Shown piece after piece: positions 6,505-23,462 of a DNA stretch of 35,865 nt; positions within the stretch are counted from its first letter, which is position 1, and every line of letters begins with the position of its first letter. Source of the DNA: Spirochaetaceae bacterium (lineage in GTDB: Bacteria > Spirochaetota > Spirochaetia > B11-G9); NCBI GenBank assembly GCA_030638735.1, contig DAOWEB010000035.1:1-35865 (forward strand), written 5' to 3'. Below the pieces are notes generated by a model that searched no databases, was not told the origin of the DNA, and was given only the letters and a program-made list of their open reading frames with translations. The translations under genes were made by a program, and so were the position numbers.

Positions 6505-8973
6505 ATGAATGATGTTTTTGAAGCCGCAAGAAATAAAATAGGAGCTGGTTTAATTCATTCCTTCTTTAATTCTGAAGGCTCATATAGTAGGGCAGGTGAA
6601 TATTATATTTTGTCACCTTTAAGAAGTGATCGTAATGTTGGATCTTTTCATATCAATGAAGAGACTGGACAATATTATGATCATCAAACTGGAGAAGGTG
6701 GGGATTTTATAGATCTGGTTTCTAAAGCCAGAGGGGTAAATTCGAAAGAAGCAGCTGAGCATATTTTAAATGAATCAGGCGGTATATTTATAAATCCTGA
6801 TACTTCTAAGAAAAAGCATAAAAATAAGAAAGATTTAATACCTCCGCAAATTCCTATTCCTGATACTGCTGAAATAAAAGAATCTTTAAAGAAACGAGTA
6901 AAAGATCAATGGTGTCTGGATAACTGGGGTAAGGCTACAAGTATAAGCCGATATTATAATAAAGACGGAGGATGGTGTTTTGTTGTATGTCGTTTTGAAA
7001 TGGAACAAAAAGTAAAAGGCAAGAAGCGCAAGAAAAACGACATATTATTTTATTTGGGAACTGATAATAAATGGCAGACAAAATGGCATGATGATTTAAA
7101 GCCTTTTCCTCCTTATGGTATTGAGAAAATCAAAGATAATAATTTACCTGTTTTAATTGTGGAAGGTGAAAAATGCGCAAGAGTAGAAGTCCCTGGATAT
7201 AATGTTATTTCATGGATCGGTGGAACTTCCAATATGGGAAAAACAAATTGGAACCTGTTAAAAGGTCGGGAAATTATAATATGGCCTGATACCGATTCAG
7301 AACTTGATAAAAATAAAGAGTTCTTCCTTCCCAGAGAATTACAATCAGGGATGAAAGCAGCATATTATATTAAATCTCAATTATCGACTTCAAAAATATT
7401 AGATATCTATAAAAATAAACCTCTTGAAGATGATCCCCACGGATGGGATATTGCTGATTTTGTAGAGGAAGGTGGGGACCCTTTAAAGTTTATTGAAGAG
7501 TTTACTCCTTATAATTCTATATCTGTTCAAATTGATCCTTACCAGGTTTACCGGAAATTCATAGAAAATTATTATGATCATGATAGCTTAGAACAATCAT
7601 CCGGAGGATTCTGGAATTATTATGAGGATGAACACTTCTGGAGAAAAACTACTAAAAATGATATTTTATGTAATTTTCAAAGATGGCTTGAAGATACTGG
7701 CCTGCAGTGGGTAATAGCAAAAAAGCAAAAAGCAACAACATTTATAAATGATACAAAACAATATTTAGATCGTCATTCCCTGGGGTATGTTGGAAATAAT
7801 CCTTTTAAAGATTCTGCAATTTCTCCATATATTCATTTTAACAATGGAGCTATTCATATTACTAAGGATAAAATTGAATGGTTCGAACGGATTAAATATG
7901 GTGAAGATTTCTATAAAAAACTGTATCCAGTCCATTGTCTTGATTTTGATTATGACCATACAAATTATAATAATATTGATCCAGAAAAAGACGCACCCGC
8001 ATTTTATTATTTTATAAAGGAATTAATACCTCATAAATATTTTGAGAGATTAAATAAAAAGGATAAAATAAAATCAATAAAAGATACACTTATTTTTATT
8101 AGCCAGATAATAGCTTATTCACTTTCTCCAGTAAAACCAAATGAATACTTTTTCGGTATTTATGGCAAGCAAAGAACTGGTAAAAGTTTTCTTCTTGATA
8201 TAATTAAATCTATTATAGGAAAGGAATTTTGTGTTGAAAAGCCTATTACAGATATGGAAAACCGTTTTGCCTCTTCTGGATTATGGGGTAAAAAGGTATT
8301 TATTGAGCCTGATTTGAAAACCAGAAAGATGTTACCAGAGGCATTTATTAAAGCATATGCAGGAGAACAGACAATTACAGTAGAAGAGAAAAATATGCCT
8401 GCAGTCGATGGGGTTAATATTAGTATGTCAATGTTCTTTGTATCTAATTATGAATTCCATACAAAAGGGCTTGAAGGATTAGCCCGCCGGATGGTTATGG
8501 TTCCATATAAGAATAATATTAAAAAACATGATACCAGATTACTTGATAAAATTTTAGGTAAATATCCCCATGGTGAAGAATCAGAAGAATTACAAGATAA
8601 AACTTTTGACGAACGTCCGGCAATAGTTGCCCTTACTATGAGGGCATGGGAGAAGTTTTGTGATAATGATTTTATTATGCAAATCCCTGAATGGGCTCAG
8701 AAAGAAAAAGATATCTGGTTAATAGAGTCCAACAGCGTTGTTAAATTTATGGAAGAAAGATATTACAACCAGGCTTATACAATGTCTGTAAAAAGAAAGG
8801 AGATTTATGATCAGTATAAAGAATGGTGCGAGGAAGAAGGGCGCAAACCATTAGGAAAAAAGAATTTTTATGAAGATGTCCGCATGGATGAAAGGATTAC
8901 AGAGACCAGAATCTTAGGTGCTGAGAGTTTCAGAATAGAAATAACCGGAAATGAGGATGATATACCATTTTAA
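6505..8973 (+). CDS. Primase-helicase fusion: TOPRIM-type primase + SF3 (D5-like) helicase, 822 aa
   Basis: Probable replication initiator that unwinds and primes phage DNA. The N-terminus (about 15-95, with YYILSPLRSDRNVGSFHI and YDHQTGEGGDFIDLV) resembles the DNA-binding region of phage primases but lacks the usual zinc cysteines. A TOPRIM-like module follows: VLIVEGEKC (216-224, E220), IIIWPDTDS (257-265, D262/D264) and GWDIADF (313-319). The C-terminal half is an SF3-type ATPase: Walker A YGKQRTGKS (553-561), Walker B KKVFIEPDL (596-604), motif C-like MFFVSNYE (643-650) and LARRMVMVP (659-667). The last residues, NEDDIPF, copy the C-terminal tip of bacterial SSB. No phage polymerase is present, so host Pol III must extend the primers. 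Confidence 0.85.
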   Translation: MNDVFEAARNKIGAGLIHSFFNSEGSYSRAGEYYILSPLRSDRNVGSFHINEETGQYYDHQTGEGGDFIDLVSKARGVNSKEAAEHILNESGGIFINPDTSKKKHKNKKDLIPPQIPIPDTAEIKESLKKRVKDQWCLDNWGKATSISRYYNKDGGWCFVVCRFEMEQKVKGKKRKKNDILFYLGTDNKWQTKWHDDLKPFPPYGIEKIKDNNLPVLIVEGEKCARVEVPGYNVISWIGGTSNMGKTNWNLLKGREIIIWPDTDSELDKNKEFFLPRELQSGMKAAYYIKSQLSTSKILDIYKNKPLEDDPHGWDIADFVEEGGDPLKFIEEFTPYNSISVQIDPYQVYRKFIENYYDHDSLEQSSGGFWNYYEDEHFWRKTTKNDILCNFQRWLEDTGLQWVIAKKQKATTFINDTKQYLDRHSLGYVGNNPFKDSAISPYIHFNNGAIHITKDKIEWFERIKYGEDFYKKLYPVHCLDFDYDHTNYNNIDPEKDAPAFYYFIKELIPHKYFERLNKKDKIKSIKDTLIFISQIIAYSLSPVKPNEYFFGIYGKQRTGKSFLLDIIKSIIGKEFCVEKPITDMENRFASSGLWGKKVFIEPDLKTRKMLPEAFIKAYAGEQTITVEEKNMPAVDGVNISMSMFFVSNYEFHTKGLEGLARRMVMVPYKNNIKKHDTRLLDKILGKYPHGEESEELQDKTFDERPAIVALTMRAWEKFCDNDFIMQIPEWAQKEKDIWLIESNSVVKFMEERYYNQAYTMSVKRKEIYDQYKEWCEEEGRKPLGKKNFYEDVRMDERITETRILGAESFRIEITGNEDDIPF

Positions 8974-9855: not shown

Positions 9856-10632
9856 ATGAAGGCGTATAAAGTATTTAATCCAGATTGGACATGTAGAAGT
9901 TTTCATTACAAAGTAGGTGAAACTTATTCTATAAAAGAAGATCCTCAGTTATGTAGTTTGGGGTTTCATGCCTGTAAAAAAGCTGTAGATTGTTTTGATT
10001 ATTATAAATTTGATCCTAAAAATAAAGTTGCTGAGGTTGAATTATTAGGCAAAATTGAGGGTCTTGACGATGATAAACAGGTAACCAATAAAATCAAAAT
10101 AATTAGAGAAATTCCATGGGGTGAATTATTGGAATTAGTAAACAGCGGCAAAGATAATACTGGTAAAAAGAACAGCGGAGACCGGAACAGCGGATACCTG
10201 AACAGCGGATACCGGAACAGCGGAGACCGGAACAGCGGAGACCGGAACAGCGGAGACCGGAACAGCGGAGACCTGAACAGCGGATACCTGAACAGCGGAG
10301 ACCTGAACAGCGGATACCGGAACAGCGGATACCTGAATTCAAAATCACCAGCCAAAAGTTATGCTTTTAATAAACTTTTGGAAGAATCAGAATTACAAAA
10401 AATATTACATTCAAGAGGATTTAATATTTTAATGAGATTCAGACTTGTTAAATATAGAGTCAGAACTAAAACTGGTAAGTTTGGGGATTATAGGTATATC
10501 TCTTATAAAAAATCATGGAAATATTTATGGTCTACTCTTTTAATTCAGGAAAGAATTGCTGTATCAGAAATTCCTCATTTTGATAAAAATGTATTTTTTG
10601 AAATAACAGGAATAAAAGTTATTGTAAAATGA
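9856..10632 (+). CDS. Phage early protein with NSG(D/Y)(R/L) pentapeptide repeats (DUF7666-like), 258 aa
   Basis: The N-terminal ~95 residues (MKAYKVFNPDWTCRSFHYKV, then CSLGFHACKKAVDCFDYY and NKIKIIREIPWGELLELVN) match a widespread phage family of unknown function that I know as DUF7666-like. Next comes a run of eleven near-identical five-residue repeats (about residues 106-160), likely a repetitive beta-rich rod, then a ~98-residue basic helical/beta C-terminus. In related proteins the N-domain is also followed by N(S/T)G(D/N)W-type repeats. First gene of the unit driven by the promoter at 9796; it overlaps the next gene by ATGA. The repeats are far more GC-rich than their surroundings. Molecular role unknown. 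Confidence 0.75.
   Translation: MKAYKVFNPDWTCRSFHYKVGETYSIKEDPQLCSLGFHACKKAVDCFDYYKFDPKNKVAEVELLGKIEGLDDDKQVTNKIKIIREIPWGELLELVNSGKDNTGKKNSGDRNSGYLNSGYRNSGDRNSGDRNSGDRNSGDLNSGYLNSGDLNSGYRNSGYLNSKSPAKSYAFNKLLEESELQKILHSRGFNILMRFRLVKYRVRTKTGKFGDYRYISYKKSWKYLWSTLLIQERIAVSEIPHFDKNVFFEITGIKVIVK
10171..10335 (+). repeat. Eleven 15-bp in-frame tandem repeats varying at only two bases
   Basis: Units start every 15 bases from 10171. Each is AACAGCGGA(G/T)ACC(G/T)G. The two variable bases change codon 4 between Asp and Tyr and codon 5 between Arg and Leu. All other bases, including silent positions, are invariant. Order of codon pairs: DR, YL, YR, DR, DR, DR, DL, YL, DL, YR, YL. A degenerate unit (about 10141-10170) precedes and AATTCA ends the array. 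Confidence 0.95.
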
Positions 10633-11728: not shown

Positions 11729-12334
11729 ATGAAAAATAAAATAAATGATACAGTAAATTGTACAGTATGCGAAAAACCTGCAATATTAGACAAATATTAT
11801 AAGGTTTCTAAATACAATAATCATGGCCGGGCTTATTGTTCTTCTGAATGCTCAAAAGAATATTGCCGAAAAGTTTCTTCTGAAACAATGGCAAAGACAA
11901 ATAGAAAATATGCTTCAGAAAGAATGATAAAAAATAATCCTATGAAGAATCCAGAAACCAGAGAAAAGGTAAGCACTAAATTAAGAGCTATGGGACATAA
12001 ACCAAAGATTCAAGGCGGTAATGGCAGAGGTCATACAATATATCAACTTGCTCTTTCTATGGCTTTAGGTTGGCCTATGGAGGTAGTAGCTCTTACAGGA
12101 GAACCAAAAGGAAATGGTATTCCAACAGCTTATAAAATAGACATAGGCAATCCGATTTTAAAAATTGCAATAGAGGTTGATGGTAATTCTCATACCGCTT
12201 TAATAAGACAAGCTCAAGATAAACGAAAAGATAATGTTTTAAAAAATTTAGGATGGAAAGTTCTAAGATTCAAAAATAGAGAAGTAGAAAATGATTTACA
12301 TGGATGTGTAAAAAAGGTTCTGGATCTTATATGA
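11729..12334 (+). CDS. Free-standing homing-type endonuclease: zinc finger + NUMOD3 + Vsr/DUF559-like nuclease (201 aa)
   Basis: Residues 11-46 carry a C11-C14/C37-C41 zinc-binding module. NPMKNPETREKVS (70-82) resembles the NUMOD3 DNA-recognition helix of homing endonucleases. The C-terminal domain (about 135-200) reads like a Vsr/DUF559 PD-(D/E)XK nuclease: AYKIDIGNP (D138), KIAIEVDGNSH (E149, D151, H155) and DNVLKNLGWKVLRF. It is likely a selfish gene that cleaves intron-less or marker-less relatives and spreads by repair. It has its own promoter, no ribosome site, and stops inside the helicase start (ATGA). Promoter plus gene look like a unit inserted between the nuclease and the helicase. 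Confidence 0.75.
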   Translation: MKNKINDTVNCTVCEKPAILDKYYKVSKYNNHGRAYCSSECSKEYCRKVSSETMAKTNRKYASERMIKNNPMKNPETREKVSTKLRAMGHKPKIQGGNGRGHTIYQLALSMALGWPMEVVALTGEPKGNGIPTAYKIDIGNPILKIAIEVDGNSHTALIRQAQDKRKDNVLKNLGWKVLRFKNREVENDLHGCVKKVLDLI

Positions 12335-13788
12335 AACTCAGGGACTATCAAGAAGATATAGTAAGAGAAGTTGTTAAGGCATACAAGCAGGGATACAAGG
12401 CTCCATTAGTTGTTGCTCCCACTGGTTCAGGCAAAACAATAATATTTGCTTTTATCGCTACCGGTGCAATCAAAAAAGGTAAAAGAGTTTTAATCCTTAC
12501 TCACCGTCGGGAAATTCTTCAACAAACAATGTCTAAACTGTTTGATTTTGGAGTACAGGCGGGACAGATTGCCTCCGGGCGTCCTATGACAGATGAACTA
12601 ATACAGGTCGCCATGGTTGGAACTATTGTAAGGCGGCTTGACTCTATCATACCCCCGGATTTAATAATAGTGGATGAAAGTCATCATAGTATCTCAAATA
12701 CTTGGAGTAAAACAATAAACCATTTCCCCAATGCTTTAAGACTAGGACTGACCGCAACTCCTGAAAGGCTTGACGGTTCCGGGCTTATTGAAATTTTTGA
12801 TACCATGATTATGGGTCCTCATCTAGTTGATTTGGTAAAATCCGGAAATCTTTCATATCCTAAAATATATTCAGCACCTGCCGAACTATTACCAAAAAAA
12901 GTAAAAATTACCCGTGGTGATTATGACTCCAAAGAGGCAACCAAAGCAATGAAAAAACGGGTTGTTGTTGGGTCAGTTATCCAGCATTATAAACAATATC
13001 TGAACGGATTACCTACAGTCTGCTTTTGCGTATCCATCGAACATTGCCAAATAATGGAGGATGAATTTAAAGCTGCTGGATTCAGATCACAAACTATTCA
13101 CGGTAAAATGAACCGGGCAGACCGTGAAGCAAGTATAAAAGGACTTGAGACCGGAGAAGTCCAGGTACTCTGCAGCTGTGACGTAATATCTGAAGGAGTG
13201 GACGTTCCTGTAATTGCGGGCGCTATACTGCTCCGAAGGACTAAAAGCCTCGGATTATACCTCCAGCAGATAGGGAGGGCATTAAGGCCATACCCTGGTA
13301 AGACACAGGCTATAATTCTGGATCACAGCGGGGTAGTTCAGGACCATGGCCATGTACTTAATATCAGAGACTGGTCGCTTATGGCAAAGAAACGGAATAA
13401 ACGGGATAAAGACGATATGAAACCGCCGGAAGTCTCAGTCTGTCCGAAGTGTTCAGGCGTCTGGCCTGGCCTTCCTAAACTATGCCCCGATTGCGGATAT
13501 AACTTGCAGGAAGATAGAGACCGGGCAGAAGGTAGAAAACCGCCTAAAGAGATAGAAGGGATTTTGCGGGAAGTACTCCCAGAAGATACTCCAGACGGTC
13601 AAATGCAGGCTTTAATTGATCAGGCTTTGAAAATTCAGCAAATGACACCTGGAGATCGTCAAAAAGCTATGATGAGTAATTTATATAAATATGGTAAGAC
13701 TGATAGGAATAAAGGACTGGCAACGGCTCTGGGATATCATAAGAACTGGACAGAGACTGTATATCATCGATTGAGGGGGAGAGGATAA
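12331..13788 (+). CDS. SF2 DEAD/DEAH-type helicase with C-terminal zinc ribbon (485 aa)
   Basis: ATP-driven DNA or RNA unwinding enzyme. Motifs in order: Q-like LRDYQ (3-7), Walker A APTGSGKT (29-36), Ia LTHRRE (56-61), II VDESHH (114-119), III GLTATPERLDG (139-149), IV/V region CSCDVISEGVDVP (281-293) and VI QQIGRALRPYPGK (312-324). C371/C374 and C385/C388 form a zinc ribbon (CPKC, CPDC). This is the plan of RecG/UvsW-like phage helicases that act at forks or recombination intermediates. The start at 12331 overlaps the endonuclease stop (ATGA); a longer frame from 12304 has no support. Confidence 0.88.
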   Translation: MKLRDYQEDIVREVVKAYKQGYKAPLVVAPTGSGKTIIFAFIATGAIKKGKRVLILTHRREILQQTMSKLFDFGVQAGQIASGRPMTDELIQVAMVGTIVRRLDSIIPPDLIIVDESHHSISNTWSKTINHFPNALRLGLTATPERLDGSGLIEIFDTMIMGPHLVDLVKSGNLSYPKIYSAPAELLPKKVKITRGDYDSKEATKAMKKRVVVGSVIQHYKQYLNGLPTVCFCVSIEHCQIMEDEFKAAGFRSQTIHGKMNRADREASIKGLETGEVQVLCSCDVISEGVDVPVIAGAILLRRTKSLGLYLQQIGRALRPYPGKTQAIILDHSGVVQDHGHVLNIRDWSLMAKKRNKRDKDDMKPPEVSVCPKCSGVWPGLPKLCPDCGYNLQEDRDRAEGRKPPKEIEGILREVLPEDTPDGQMQALIDQALKIQQMTPGDRQKAMMSNLYKYGKTDRNKGLATALGYHKNWTETVYHRLRGRG

Positions 13789-14040
13789 ATGGCATATTTT
13801 GCGAATGGATCAGAAGGGGAATGTTTTGAGGCTCAATGTGAAGAATGTAGATATGGTGAAAAACCGTGTCCTATTGCAGGTATCCAATTAAATTATAATT
13901 ATGATGCTTGTAATAATGAAGTAGCAACAAAAATCTTAAATGATCTTGTAAAAAATGATGGAACATGTGAAATGTTTAAATTGTGTAAAAAAGATTTTCA
14001 ACTTACTGAAGGTGAAAAATCTCAGATATCATTATTTTAA
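13789..14040 (+). CDS. Cys-rich small phage protein with C-terminal QISLF (83 aa)
   Basis: ATG 13789 directly follows the helicase stop, with GAGGGGGAGAGG upstream. The N-terminal FANGSEGECFEAQCEEC, then RYGEKPCPI and NYDACNNE, matches a phage family I recognise only as conserved hypothetical. Its cysteines (C12, C17, C20, C27, C41, C60, C67) could bind zinc or an iron-sulfur cluster. After a charged linker (LTEGEKS) the last five residues are QISLF, the pattern of bacterial beta-clamp-binding peptides (QL[SD]LF). A tether to the host sliding clamp is a reasonable hypothesis, untested. Confidence 0.75.
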   Translation: MAYFANGSEGECFEAQCEECRYGEKPCPIAGIQLNYNYDACNNEVATKILNDLVKNDGTCEMFKLCKKDFQLTEGEKSQISLF

Positions 14041-14041
14041 T

Positions 14042-14215
14042 ATGAATCTTATCTATGATATCCGACTTGATACAGTTCTTTGTCCATGTTGTAATGGACC
14101 GGCACACTGGACTAAAAAAGGCTTACAATGTGAATGGGATAAATGCAAATATTTTTATACTATATTTCCAGTAAAAAAAAGCGTTAATATATTTCAATTG
14201 GAATTAGATTTTTAA
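14042..14215 (+). CDS. Small zinc-ribbon protein with C-terminal QLELDF (57 aa)
   Basis: Starts one base after the preceding stop, with no separate ribosome site, so it is probably translated by coupling. C14/C17/C18 and C30/C35 (CPCC, CEWDKC) suggest a zinc ribbon, followed by KYFYTIFPVKKSVNIF. The last six residues QLELDF fit the hexapeptide beta-clamp-binding pattern QLxLx(L/F), as in DinB-type polymerases. It is the final gene of the early rightward operon and stops three bases before the convergent tRNA gene. No terminator was seen between them. Confidence 0.68.
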   Translation: MNLIYDIRLDTVLCPCCNGPAHWTKKGLQCEWDKCKYFYTIFPVKKSVNIFQLELDF

Positions 14216-14217
14216 TA

Positions 14218-14290
14218 TTGCGGGAACGGGACTCGAACCCGTGACATCATGGTTATGAGCCATGTGTTCTGCCAACTGAACTACCCCACA
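14218..14290 (-). tRNA. tRNA-Met (CAU anticodon)
   Basis: A full cloverleaf can be drawn: acceptor TGTGGGG with TCCCGCA (two G-T), D-stem GTTC/GAAC, anticodon stem CATGG/CCATG with loop CTCATAA, T-arm ACGGG-TTCGAGT-CCCGT, discriminator A. It has 73 bases and no encoded CCA. The paired T1-A72 end and the lack of the GGG/CCC anticodon stem argue for an elongator rather than an initiator. If C34 were lysidine-modified it would read AUA instead; the sequence alone cannot decide. Confidence 0.93.
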
Positions 14291-14295
14291 AAAGT

Positions 14296-18713: not shown

Positions 18714-18734
18714 AGCCTGGAGTCAATCCAGGCT
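18714..18734. terminator. Hairpin between convergent units (possible bidirectional terminator)
   Basis: AGCCTGGA (18714-18721) and TCCAGGCT (18727-18734) form an eight-base stem with loop GTCAA. T-tracts are poor on both sides, so it may slow rather than stop polymerase. The stop codon of the 138-aa lysis-cassette gene lies in its loop. Confidence 0.5.
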
Positions 18735-19139
18735 GTTAATCCCTATATATGTTAATTCCCCAAGTACGACCGATGACAACCCTATTATTACATATTTCAT
18801 GATTTTAATCTGTAATTGTTGCCGATTCGATAAACTCTGCAAAGTCTGTATTGATAAGCCCATATTCTGCAAGGTCTGATTCTGTTTTTTCGCTTCCTGC
18901 TGTGAGGTTGTCAATGATTCGTTCAAGTTCGATATTGTCCGTTTCGAGTTCCTGATTGTATCCTTTGCTTTTAATAAGTTCGCTTTGGATAACCTCATTT
19001 GTTCTAGTAAGCTCTGTTCGTTGCTTTTGTAACGATTCAATAATAGAGTCAAGCTGACCTTTTCCTGAGAAGATAAACCAAATAAGGCCGATGATAATGA
19101 GAGAAAGAATAATAATAGCAATAGTTTTTTTATATTCAA
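18723..19139 (-). CDS. Spanin-like protein: signal peptide, coiled coil, C-terminal membrane segment (138 aa)
   Basis: Starts at TTG 19139-19137 behind GAGGTG. N-terminal signal sequence (NIKKLLLLLFFLSLSSALFG), a long Gln/Asn-rich coiled coil (about 35-105) and a C-terminal membrane helix (IMKYVIIGLSSVVLGELTYI). There is no cysteine, hence no lipobox, so it is not a classical Rz1 lipoprotein. The build suits a spanin-like protein bridging the envelope at lysis. Most of the gene is read in a second frame by the 113-aa gene at 18805-19146. Both frames look protein-like; this one has the better ribosome site and runs 82 bases further. Confidence 0.55.
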   Translation of the reverse strand: MNIKKLLLLLFFLSLSSALFGLSSQEKVSLTLLLNRYKSNEQSLLEQMRLSKANLLKAKDTIRNSKRTISNLNESLTTSQQEAKKQNQTLQNMGLSIQTLQSLSNRQQLQIKIMKYVIIGLSSVVLGELTYIGINSLD

Positions 19140-19146
19140 TTGTCAC
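18805..19146 (-). CDS. Rz-like (i-spanin-like) protein overlapping another frame (113 aa)
   Basis: Starts at GTG 19146-19144, overlapping the holin stop (GTGA). Signal-anchor helix (TIAIIILSLIIIGLIWFIFS, about 8-27), then a coiled coil (QLDSIIESLQKQRTELTRTN; NQELETDNIELERIIDNLTA) and an acidic end. This is the plan of an inner-membrane Rz spanin, at the expected place after the holin. Almost the whole gene is embedded, in another frame, in the 138-aa gene, as Rz1 is in Rz. Either one frame is a shadow or both are used; codon content does not clearly reject either by eye. Confidence 0.5.
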   Translation of the reverse strand: MTIEYKKTIAIIILSLIIIGLIWFIFSGKGQLDSIIESLQKQRTELTRTNEVIQSELIKSKGYNQELETDNIELERIIDNLTAGSEKTESDLAEYGLINTDFAEFIESATITD

Positions 19147-22147: not shown

Positions 22148-22339
22148 ATGAGAACTATTAAATTATGTGCAGGTTTAAGTCTGTCTCATAAATCAGATGG
22201 TATCTGGCTAAATTTTGAAACAAAAACTGGATTATATGCTTCTATTCAGTTAGCCAATACTTTCAAAGTGGGTATTATAAAATCTGCTATATTGGGTTGG
22301 GCTGAAGAACGACTACAGGAGGAAATTGATGGGAATTAA
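22148..22339 (+). CDS. Small hypothetical protein (63 aa)
   Basis: Follows the operator promoter with TGAGGAGAATGT upstream. Short alpha/beta protein (TIKLCAGLSLSHKSDGIWLN; GIIKSAILGWAEERLQEEID). Overlaps the Gp3-like gene by eleven bases, whose ribosome site AGGAGG lies in this coding end, so the two are coupled. Function unknown. Confidence 0.6.
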   Translation: MRTIKLCAGLSLSHKSDGIWLNFETKTGLYASIQLANTFKVGIIKSAILGWAEERLQEEIDGN

Positions 22340-23462
22340 AAAAGGCTTAACACCTAGGCTTGCTGAAGTCGGGAAAATCAAGATAGGAATGAAAGGAGAA
22401 GAAAGGAAAGGTAAAACTAAAATGTATCGTCTACCTGTAAGATTAGATCATTTTATAATTACCACAACAGAACGGGAAAATAAGAACGGAAATTTTATTC
22501 CGAACTGGGAATTAATGGAAAAGTTAGACCCAAAAGAAAATTGGATAGATGGTCAGATTCATGCGAAACCAAAAGAAATCCCTATTATATTTCTATTCGA
22601 TGATATTGATTTGAACTTTCAGACCTCCTTTGCATTCTATCAGGGCGCAAAATGCTTATGCCGTGGGGATGGTGAAACATCAGAAAGGCATTGCCTTAAA
22701 GCTGGTAAACAGAATGTATTTGCTGGAACGGATAACAAAAATAATCCGGTATTTGAAATGATGGACGTAAAAGCCGGGGCTATGGCAAAAGTTGAATGTG
22801 ATCCTGATATATGTCCATTCATGCAACCCAATTCAGATGGGATTACAAAGTGCAAACCATCAGGAATTCTCTCTTGTCTTATACCTGCATCAATGAACAT
22901 AGGTGGAGTATATCGGTTCAGGTCTCATTCATGGAATACCCTATCTAATATTCTTGCTTCCCTGGAACTCATTAAAACAATCACCGGTGGAATATTAGTC
23001 GGTCTGCCCATGAAGTTGCAAATGTTAAAAAAGGCGACTGAAAGCCATGGAAATGTTAATACGGTCAATGTAGTATTTGACGGTGAAACCCATCAAGAAA
23101 TGAGACAGTTAGCACTCATAGAGAACAAAAACCGTATGGAGCACGGAGTCAATATGCTACTCATTGAGGATAACGCCCGAAAAGCAGGTTTTACAAACGA
23201 CATAGATGACCCGGCAGATATTGAAGCAGAATTTTATGTTGAATCTGAAGAGAAAAAAAAGCCTCCTGTAAATATCACAGATAGGGCGGATCTTGTTCTT
23301 GATGGTGTTCAGGATGAATCTTTTGTAGAACCAGAAGAAGAAACAGAACTGGAGCCAACTATTGAAGAGGATGAGCCTGAGCCAGAAAAATCTGATAAGC
23401 CAGAGACCACGGAAGAATCAAATAAAAAACAGCCTCCTGATGATGGATTGGAGATATTCTAA
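22329..23462 (+). CDS. Gp3/recombination-directionality-factor-like protein with acidic tail (377 aa)
   Basis: Conserved stretches IKIGMKGEERKGKTKMYRLP, IPIIFLFDDIDLNFQTSFAF, CLCRGDGETSERHC, KCKPSGILSCLIP and YRFRSHSWNTLSNILASLEL match proteins annotated as recombination directionality factor/Gp3-like or metal-binding. The cysteines likely hold zinc. Family members occur in phages and islands, not always with an integrase; none is seen here. The C-terminal ~70 residues are strongly acidic and end DDGLEIF, like the tails of single-strand binding proteins. With the YqaJ exonuclease upstream, an SSB- or annealase-like role is a fair alternative. ATG 22329 follows AGGAGG. Confidence 0.72.
   Translation: MGIKKGLTPRLAEVGKIKIGMKGEERKGKTKMYRLPVRLDHFIITTTERENKNGNFIPNWELMEKLDPKENWIDGQIHAKPKEIPIIFLFDDIDLNFQTSFAFYQGAKCLCRGDGETSERHCLKAGKQNVFAGTDNKNNPVFEMMDVKAGAMAKVECDPDICPFMQPNSDGITKCKPSGILSCLIPASMNIGGVYRFRSHSWNTLSNILASLELIKTITGGILVGLPMKLQMLKKATESHGNVNTVNVVFDGETHQEMRQLALIENKNRMEHGVNMLLIEDNARKAGFTNDIDDPADIEAEFYVESEEKKKPPVNITDRADLVLDGVQDESFVEPEEETELEPTIEEDEPEPEKSDKPETTEESNKKQPPDDGLEIF

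Follow-up and report, generated by a model that had tools for sequence, protein, structure and literature searches.

Two adjacent genes in the early cluster of a phage-like contig encode small, cysteine-rich proteins whose C-termini, QISLF and QLELDF, fit the two forms of the bacterial clamp-binding motif (CBM). We propose, at a probability of about 0.6, that these proteins are metal-binding domains tethered to the host sliding clamp via their C-terminal CBMs and that they serve phage replication; in this proposal, the metal, the binding and the purpose are what we infer. Clamp binding itself is very likely for the first mini-protein and likely for the second, and an adaptor role is mildly favored.

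Two small genes in an early phage cluster

The window, i.e., the whole stretch of DNA that was analyzed, comprises all of contig C258 (35.9 kb), which belongs to a metagenome-assembled genome (MAG), and looks like the genome of a tailed phage or a fragment of one. Structural genes occupy its minus strand, and an early cluster on the plus strand runs from a primase-helicase through a helicase to the two mini-protein genes:

6505..8973, plus strand: primase-helicase, D5/DUF5906-like; start of the gene cluster containing the mini-protein genes
12304..13788, plus strand: superfamily 2 helicase (ResIII/DEAD; distant RadD-like score), directly upstream of the first mini-protein gene
13775..13784, plus strand: Shine-Dalgarno-like sequence GGGGGAGAGG of the first mini-protein gene, 4 nt before the ATG
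13789..14040, plus strand: first mini-protein (P0001, 83 aa), MAYF[SA]NG family with relatives in IMG/VR; putative metal-site domain plus tail
13837..13968, plus strand: four invariant cysteines C17, C20, C27 and C60 in an alignment of 34 sequences (probable Zn or Fe-S site)
14023..14037, plus strand: pentameric CBM QISLF, C-terminal, stop at 14038-14040; both motif forms recur in homologues
14042..14215, plus strand: second mini-protein (P0002, 57 aa), zinc-ribbon-like CPCC...CEWDKC plus tail
14195..14212, plus strand: hexameric CBM QLELDF, C-terminal, stop at 14213-14215; these six residues also make up the end of the phage-display binder LQLELDF (PMC11139829)

A sequence-only reading of this DNA had described both products as cysteine-rich and as ending in clamp-binding peptides. 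Both termini lie exactly where it had placed them, the full ends being SQISLF for the product of 13789-14040 and FQLELDF for that of 14042-14215, and the cysteines are likewise confirmed: C17-x2-C20-x6-C27...C60 in the first protein, all four invariant across the aligned sequences, and C14-x2-C17...C30-x4-C35 in the second. In each protein it is solely these cysteines that suggest metal binding, with Zn or Fe-S the probable occupant of the Cys4 site in the first. The further suggestion of that reading, a device that recruits or blocks a polymerase, reaches beyond the present data, which do not discriminate between these two roles.

A strong Shine-Dalgarno sequence precedes the first gene, whose codon use is coding-like. 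An AlphaFold model of its product, built with 34 sequences, gives a helical domain at moderate confidence (mean pLDDT 73.5) followed by a C-terminal block of low confidence (mean pLDDT 49). A fold search of the PDB and BFVD with this moderate model returned no match, and no family assignment was obtained for the protein in Pfam, PHROGs or NCBIfam, or for its family in PADLOC. A profile search of the PDB gave weak RING-finger/BMI-1 scores only (E 0.06).

The second gene starts 1 nt after the stop of the first (TAA-T-ATG) and has no clear ribosome site; it is probably translated by coupling to the first. Its frame is the best of six but neutral, scoring -0.01 per codon against -0.31 to -0.72 in the others; what argues for a real gene is the open frame, the position and the motif only. 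No homologue of its product was found, and scans of Pfam, PHROGs and NCBIfam gave none. Five loci with DTVLCPCC have only this short cysteine knuckle in common with it, and weak matches in relatives of the host proved on inspection not to be homologues. A single-sequence model is poor throughout (C-terminal mean pLDDT 39). Its terminal QLELDF is the exact hexamer within LQLELDF, which is reported to have been the commonest peptide recovered when phage display was used to select clamp binders (PMC11139829).

Other features of the window were recorded in passing. A tRNA-Met (CAT) gene at 14217-14291 on the minus strand sits where two convergent gene blocks meet; its 3' end lies 2 nt from the stop at 14213-14215, which closes the second mini-protein gene. 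In the protein encoded at 9856-10632, the middle part contains a tandem array of roughly twelve five-residue repeats (NSGDR, NSGYL, NSGYR). At 18723-19146, on the minus strand and adjoining a possible lysis region, two overlapping open reading frames (ORFs) in different frames, each hydrophobic at its start, look like an embedded spanin pair.

A recurrent tail in the MAYF[SA]NG family

Relatives of the first mini-protein were gathered stepwise: a seed search yielded 4, an alignment search 51 IMG/VR loci and 2 in genomes, and a second alignment search two more. The resulting MAYF[SA]NG family is present on 53 IMG/VR contigs, and all of its members begin with MAYF[SA]N. While the clamp-binding motif is already well known, the family is undescribed as far as the family libraries and papers searched go. 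PHROG 6074 (function unassigned) matches the N-terminal half of several distant relatives, with E down to 1e-6; the mini-protein of the window gave no match to it in a profile test, and a profile match over most of the protein was not found. By tblastn, no clear relative turned up in cultured phages or plasmids: LittleE gp181 (E 0.4) has the N-terminal and cysteine pattern in common but no CBM, and a match to Ruminococcus phage gp46 was judged to be chance. Within the class of the MAG's host, none of 97 other genomes encodes a family member.

The tail after the last cysteine varies in length and sequence between members, and CBMs recur within it. They include NQINLFKQ, NQLNMF, DQLKLEL, DQLELEL, NQLDLFN, NQLDLF, NQLSIPF, NQGDLFEG, NQLSLF, GQRDLFEGGE, GQMKMF, GQTKMF and GQLKMGF, so that both the pentameric and the hexameric form are represented (QLSLF, QLDLF, QLKLEL, QLSIPF, QLKMGF). 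The form even switches between close relatives (QLKLEL in L027, QLELEL in L029, QLDLFN in L030, QLDLF in L031), and a CBM is also kept in relatives of about 35% identity, behind tails of differing length. Some eight more tails are near matches, e.g., NLKLNF with Asn for Gln (L021), EQELF (L019) and QRKLW (L034); matches of the 'QCSMF' type around the last invariant cysteine (L049, L050) were dropped as part of the metal site. This is the pattern to be expected if the tail were under selection for function rather than for exact sequence.

A CBM occurs in 18 of 50 family tails, compared with a mean of 1.09 and a maximum of 6 when each tail was shuffled 5000 times. With a stricter pattern the count was 15 observed against 0.35 shuffled, and in a reduced set of 46 representatives 15 against 0.95. 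Because these first patterns had been devised after sight of some of the tails, we repeated the comparison with a consensus published in a 2024 review (PMC11139829), Q-phi-x-[LM]-[FL] or Q-phi-x-[LM]-x-[FL], in which we also allowed Met as phi. The background was 563 other ORFs of at least 50 aa from the relatives' loci. Within the last 16 residues, the consensus was present in 10/50 members and 5/563 neighboring proteins (Fisher p=1.2e-8), and exactly at the end in 6/50 and 1/563, respectively; the excess is smaller than with the first patterns but still significant. Of the background ORFs, two carry a canonical CBM in the last six residues and one has it exactly at the terminus, and two adjacent genes that both end in a CBM are therefore far from expectation.

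The 50 members are not independent by kinship. In a domain-only phylogeny that excludes the tail and is itself poorly resolved, the CBM label requires at least 11 changes, 3 of them forced by well-supported branches, and the motif is found in both deep clades (4/16 and 14/32 rows). The expectation that homologues of the first protein would keep the Gln and the terminal positions thus held in part: the CBM is far above chance, but it is missing in about half of the family. Because of this absence, the tail is best regarded as a recurrent module rather than a fixed feature, and clamp binding is not the core function of the family.

Several further proteins at these loci bear on the range of the motif. 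The member at L045:229-384 is only 51 aa long; most of the helical domain is gone, and MAYFSNGSEG, the cysteine cluster and the end DPNQLSLF are retained, making it a possible minimal natural unit. Two genes downstream of it lies an 84-aa protein with the C-terminus QLNLFA. Near the L037 member, which itself ends in QLSIPF, a 70-aa zinc-ribbon-like protein, which scores weakly against Zn_ribbon_TFIIS (E 0.012), ends in QLELFKKVK; near the L032 member, a 95-aa winged-helix-like protein ends in QLKLL. Such CBM-bearing small neighbors are few and were noticed, not predicted. Two of them could form further candidate pairs with the adjacent family member, namely the QLSIPF member with the 70-aa QLELF protein and the QLSLF member with the 84-aa QLNLFA protein. 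Methyltransferase-like proteins near CBM-less members also have CBM-like ends (L038:1280-1726 and L050:1790-2425; NQSNLFEVIN, GQKVLF).

Host clamp, replication genes and known clamp-binding proteins

By assumption, the host of the phage is the MAG in which the window was binned, at a contamination of 6.8%. Its DnaN is 29% identical to that of E. coli. When compared over a reference list of pocket residues (PMC11139829), R152, T172, G174, R176, L177, P242, R246, V247, N320, Y323, M362, P363 and M364 are kept, L155M and V360I are conservative changes, and H175R, V344N and R365Q are other changes. The DnaE of the same MAG contains an internal QTSLF. Given this mostly conserved pocket and the DnaE motif, the presumed host clamp should accept CBM peptides.

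No DNA polymerase was found in the window. Among the relatives' contigs, most of which are fragments, DNA polymerase A occurs on 1 of 49 (L059, where the family member lacks a CBM), Pol III alpha on 0 of 49 and Pol B on 0 of 24. Polymerase-less genomes are common in 40-kb phages, and their occurrence says little alone; the missing polymerase is nonetheless consistent with use of the host clamp. Genes neighboring the family encode replication initiation, helicase-loader and primase/helicase proteins, RecT, ERF and YqaJ exonuclease, along with HNH nucleases, methylases and dNTP hydrolases. One relative's contig (L043) has a full phage-encoded DnaN at 719-1873, with all three domains recognized in Pfam, three genes upstream of its family member and in the same gene run; the tail of that member, CDLELWEQ, is a degenerate CBM. 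The phage DnaN is followed by a 282-aa cysteine-rich protein beginning MATDFVQMDLLAWAG, a start that is itself CBM-like. In the window, a Gp3-like (recombination directionality factor-like) protein at 22326-23462 has the C-terminus DGLEIF. Its only IMG/VR match (L109) ends in KKALF and is encoded downstream of a phage-encoded DnaN; a Gln-less clamp contact by this protein is possible.

The consensus of bacterial CBM proteins such as Pol II, Pol IV, Pol III alpha and Hda (Q-phi-x-[LM]-[FL] or Q-phi-x-[LM]-x-[FL]; PMC11139829) fits the termini of both mini-proteins, although none of these proteins is a free-standing phage Cys4 mini-protein and no domain is shared. The T4 proteins gp33 and gp55 offer a parallel as two small phage proteins, each held to a sliding clamp by a linker-borne motif (PMC7892883), as the pair in the window would be. 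They differ in binding the trimeric clamp of the phage itself together with RNA polymerase, and in lacking a Cys4 domain. SocB of Caulobacter is a small protein whose CBM enters the DnaN pocket and blocks elongation (PMC9690074); compared by description, it differs from the mini-proteins as the toxin of a toxin-antitoxin pair that inhibits elongation. Twort Gp168, a small early phage protein, binds DnaN and stops host replication (PMC11139829) but sits in the DNA channel rather than the peptide pocket. Finally, the small zinc protein YabA of Bacillus subtilis contacts DnaN as well as a partner, and is stated to have no pentapeptide motif (PMC4705661). Its zinc site is a C-terminal HCCC and it forms a tetramer via an N-terminal helix bundle; the mini-proteins gave no NCBIfam or Pfam match to the YabA family, and their cysteine pattern and order differ. 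In the literature searched, in which subscription journals are thinly covered, the phage proteins found act on DnaN by other routes only (Twort Gp168) or on a clamp that the phage itself encodes (T4 gp33 and gp55).

A proposed tethering model and its alternatives

We propose that the first mini-protein is an early-gene product consisting of a small Cys4 metal-binding domain and a flexible tail, the C-terminal CBM of which would dock in the hydrophobic pocket of host DnaN. The product of the second, coupled gene is a different, zinc-ribbon-like mini-protein that would use the same device with a hexameric motif. The sliding clamp is a dimer with two pockets, so the pair could share one ring and be held together on DNA. 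In this way the metal-binding domains and their cargo (DNA, the neighboring helicase or a phage replication protein) would be brought to clamps on replicating phage DNA, a service to phages that rely on the host polymerase. Since members without the motif still keep the domain, the latter would have a partner of its own, and the CBM would add location. A broader version, in which unrelated cysteine-rich mini-proteins of polymerase-less phages independently gain C-terminal CBMs and, as paired 'clamp riders' on the two pockets of one host clamp, direct DNA synthesis by the host, or some other machine, to phage DNA, is speculative and in our judgment doubtful.

The proteins could instead be clamp poisons, early phage products that stop the host from replicating by occupying the pockets of DnaN. 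Both QLELDF and QISLF match the strongest-binding consensus (PMC11139829), Twort Gp168 is a precedent among small early phage proteins, if via the DNA channel (PMC11139829), SocB blocks elongation through a CBM in the same pocket (PMC9690074), and a clamp of its own, as in L043, would permit a phage to replace that of the host. Yet these phages seem to rely on the polymerase of the host, and blocking all pockets would be self-harm; moreover, a plain competitor would have no need of a domain with four invariant cysteines and MAYF[SA]NG, and many relatives dispense with the motif while retaining that domain. An adaptor is favored over a plain inhibitor for this last reason, and we consider poisoning unlikely.

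Two further readings have less in their favor. The T4 precedent of two small linker-motif proteins on the phage's own clamp (PMC7892883) raises the prospect that the CBMs serve to link the clamp on replicated phage DNA with a non-replicative machine such as RNA polymerase, and both the second mini-protein and that of L037 resemble zinc ribbons, the latter weakly (Zn_ribbon_TFIIS, E 0.012). The genes nevertheless sit in an early module, the searches showed no resemblance in sequence to gp33, to gp55 or to any sigma factor, and Pfam, PHROGs and NCBIfam revealed no sigma-like or beta-flap-binding domain in either mini-protein; we consider such coupling quite improbable. That the hydrophobic C-termini are coincidental and belong to small proteins with no relation to each other, e.g., as exposed tails for degradation or folding, would accord with the half of the family that has no motif, with a second mini-protein that has no relatives and with the ease with which short motifs arise. 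This is very improbable in light of the CBM excess over shuffles and over neighbors, the retained Gln, the use of both spacings and the recurrence across clades; nor would a degradation tail need the Q-x-x-L-F spacing.

Replisome takeover by polymerase-less phages has been worked out in only a few model phages, and a family of very small proteins already equipped with a clamp tag would provide a direct and easily tested handle on it. If clamp tethering is correct, the list of clamp clients would gain a new architecture, a metal domain plus a tail; the family would offer natural clamp ligands; and unannotated genes in dozens of metagenomic phages would be given a function.
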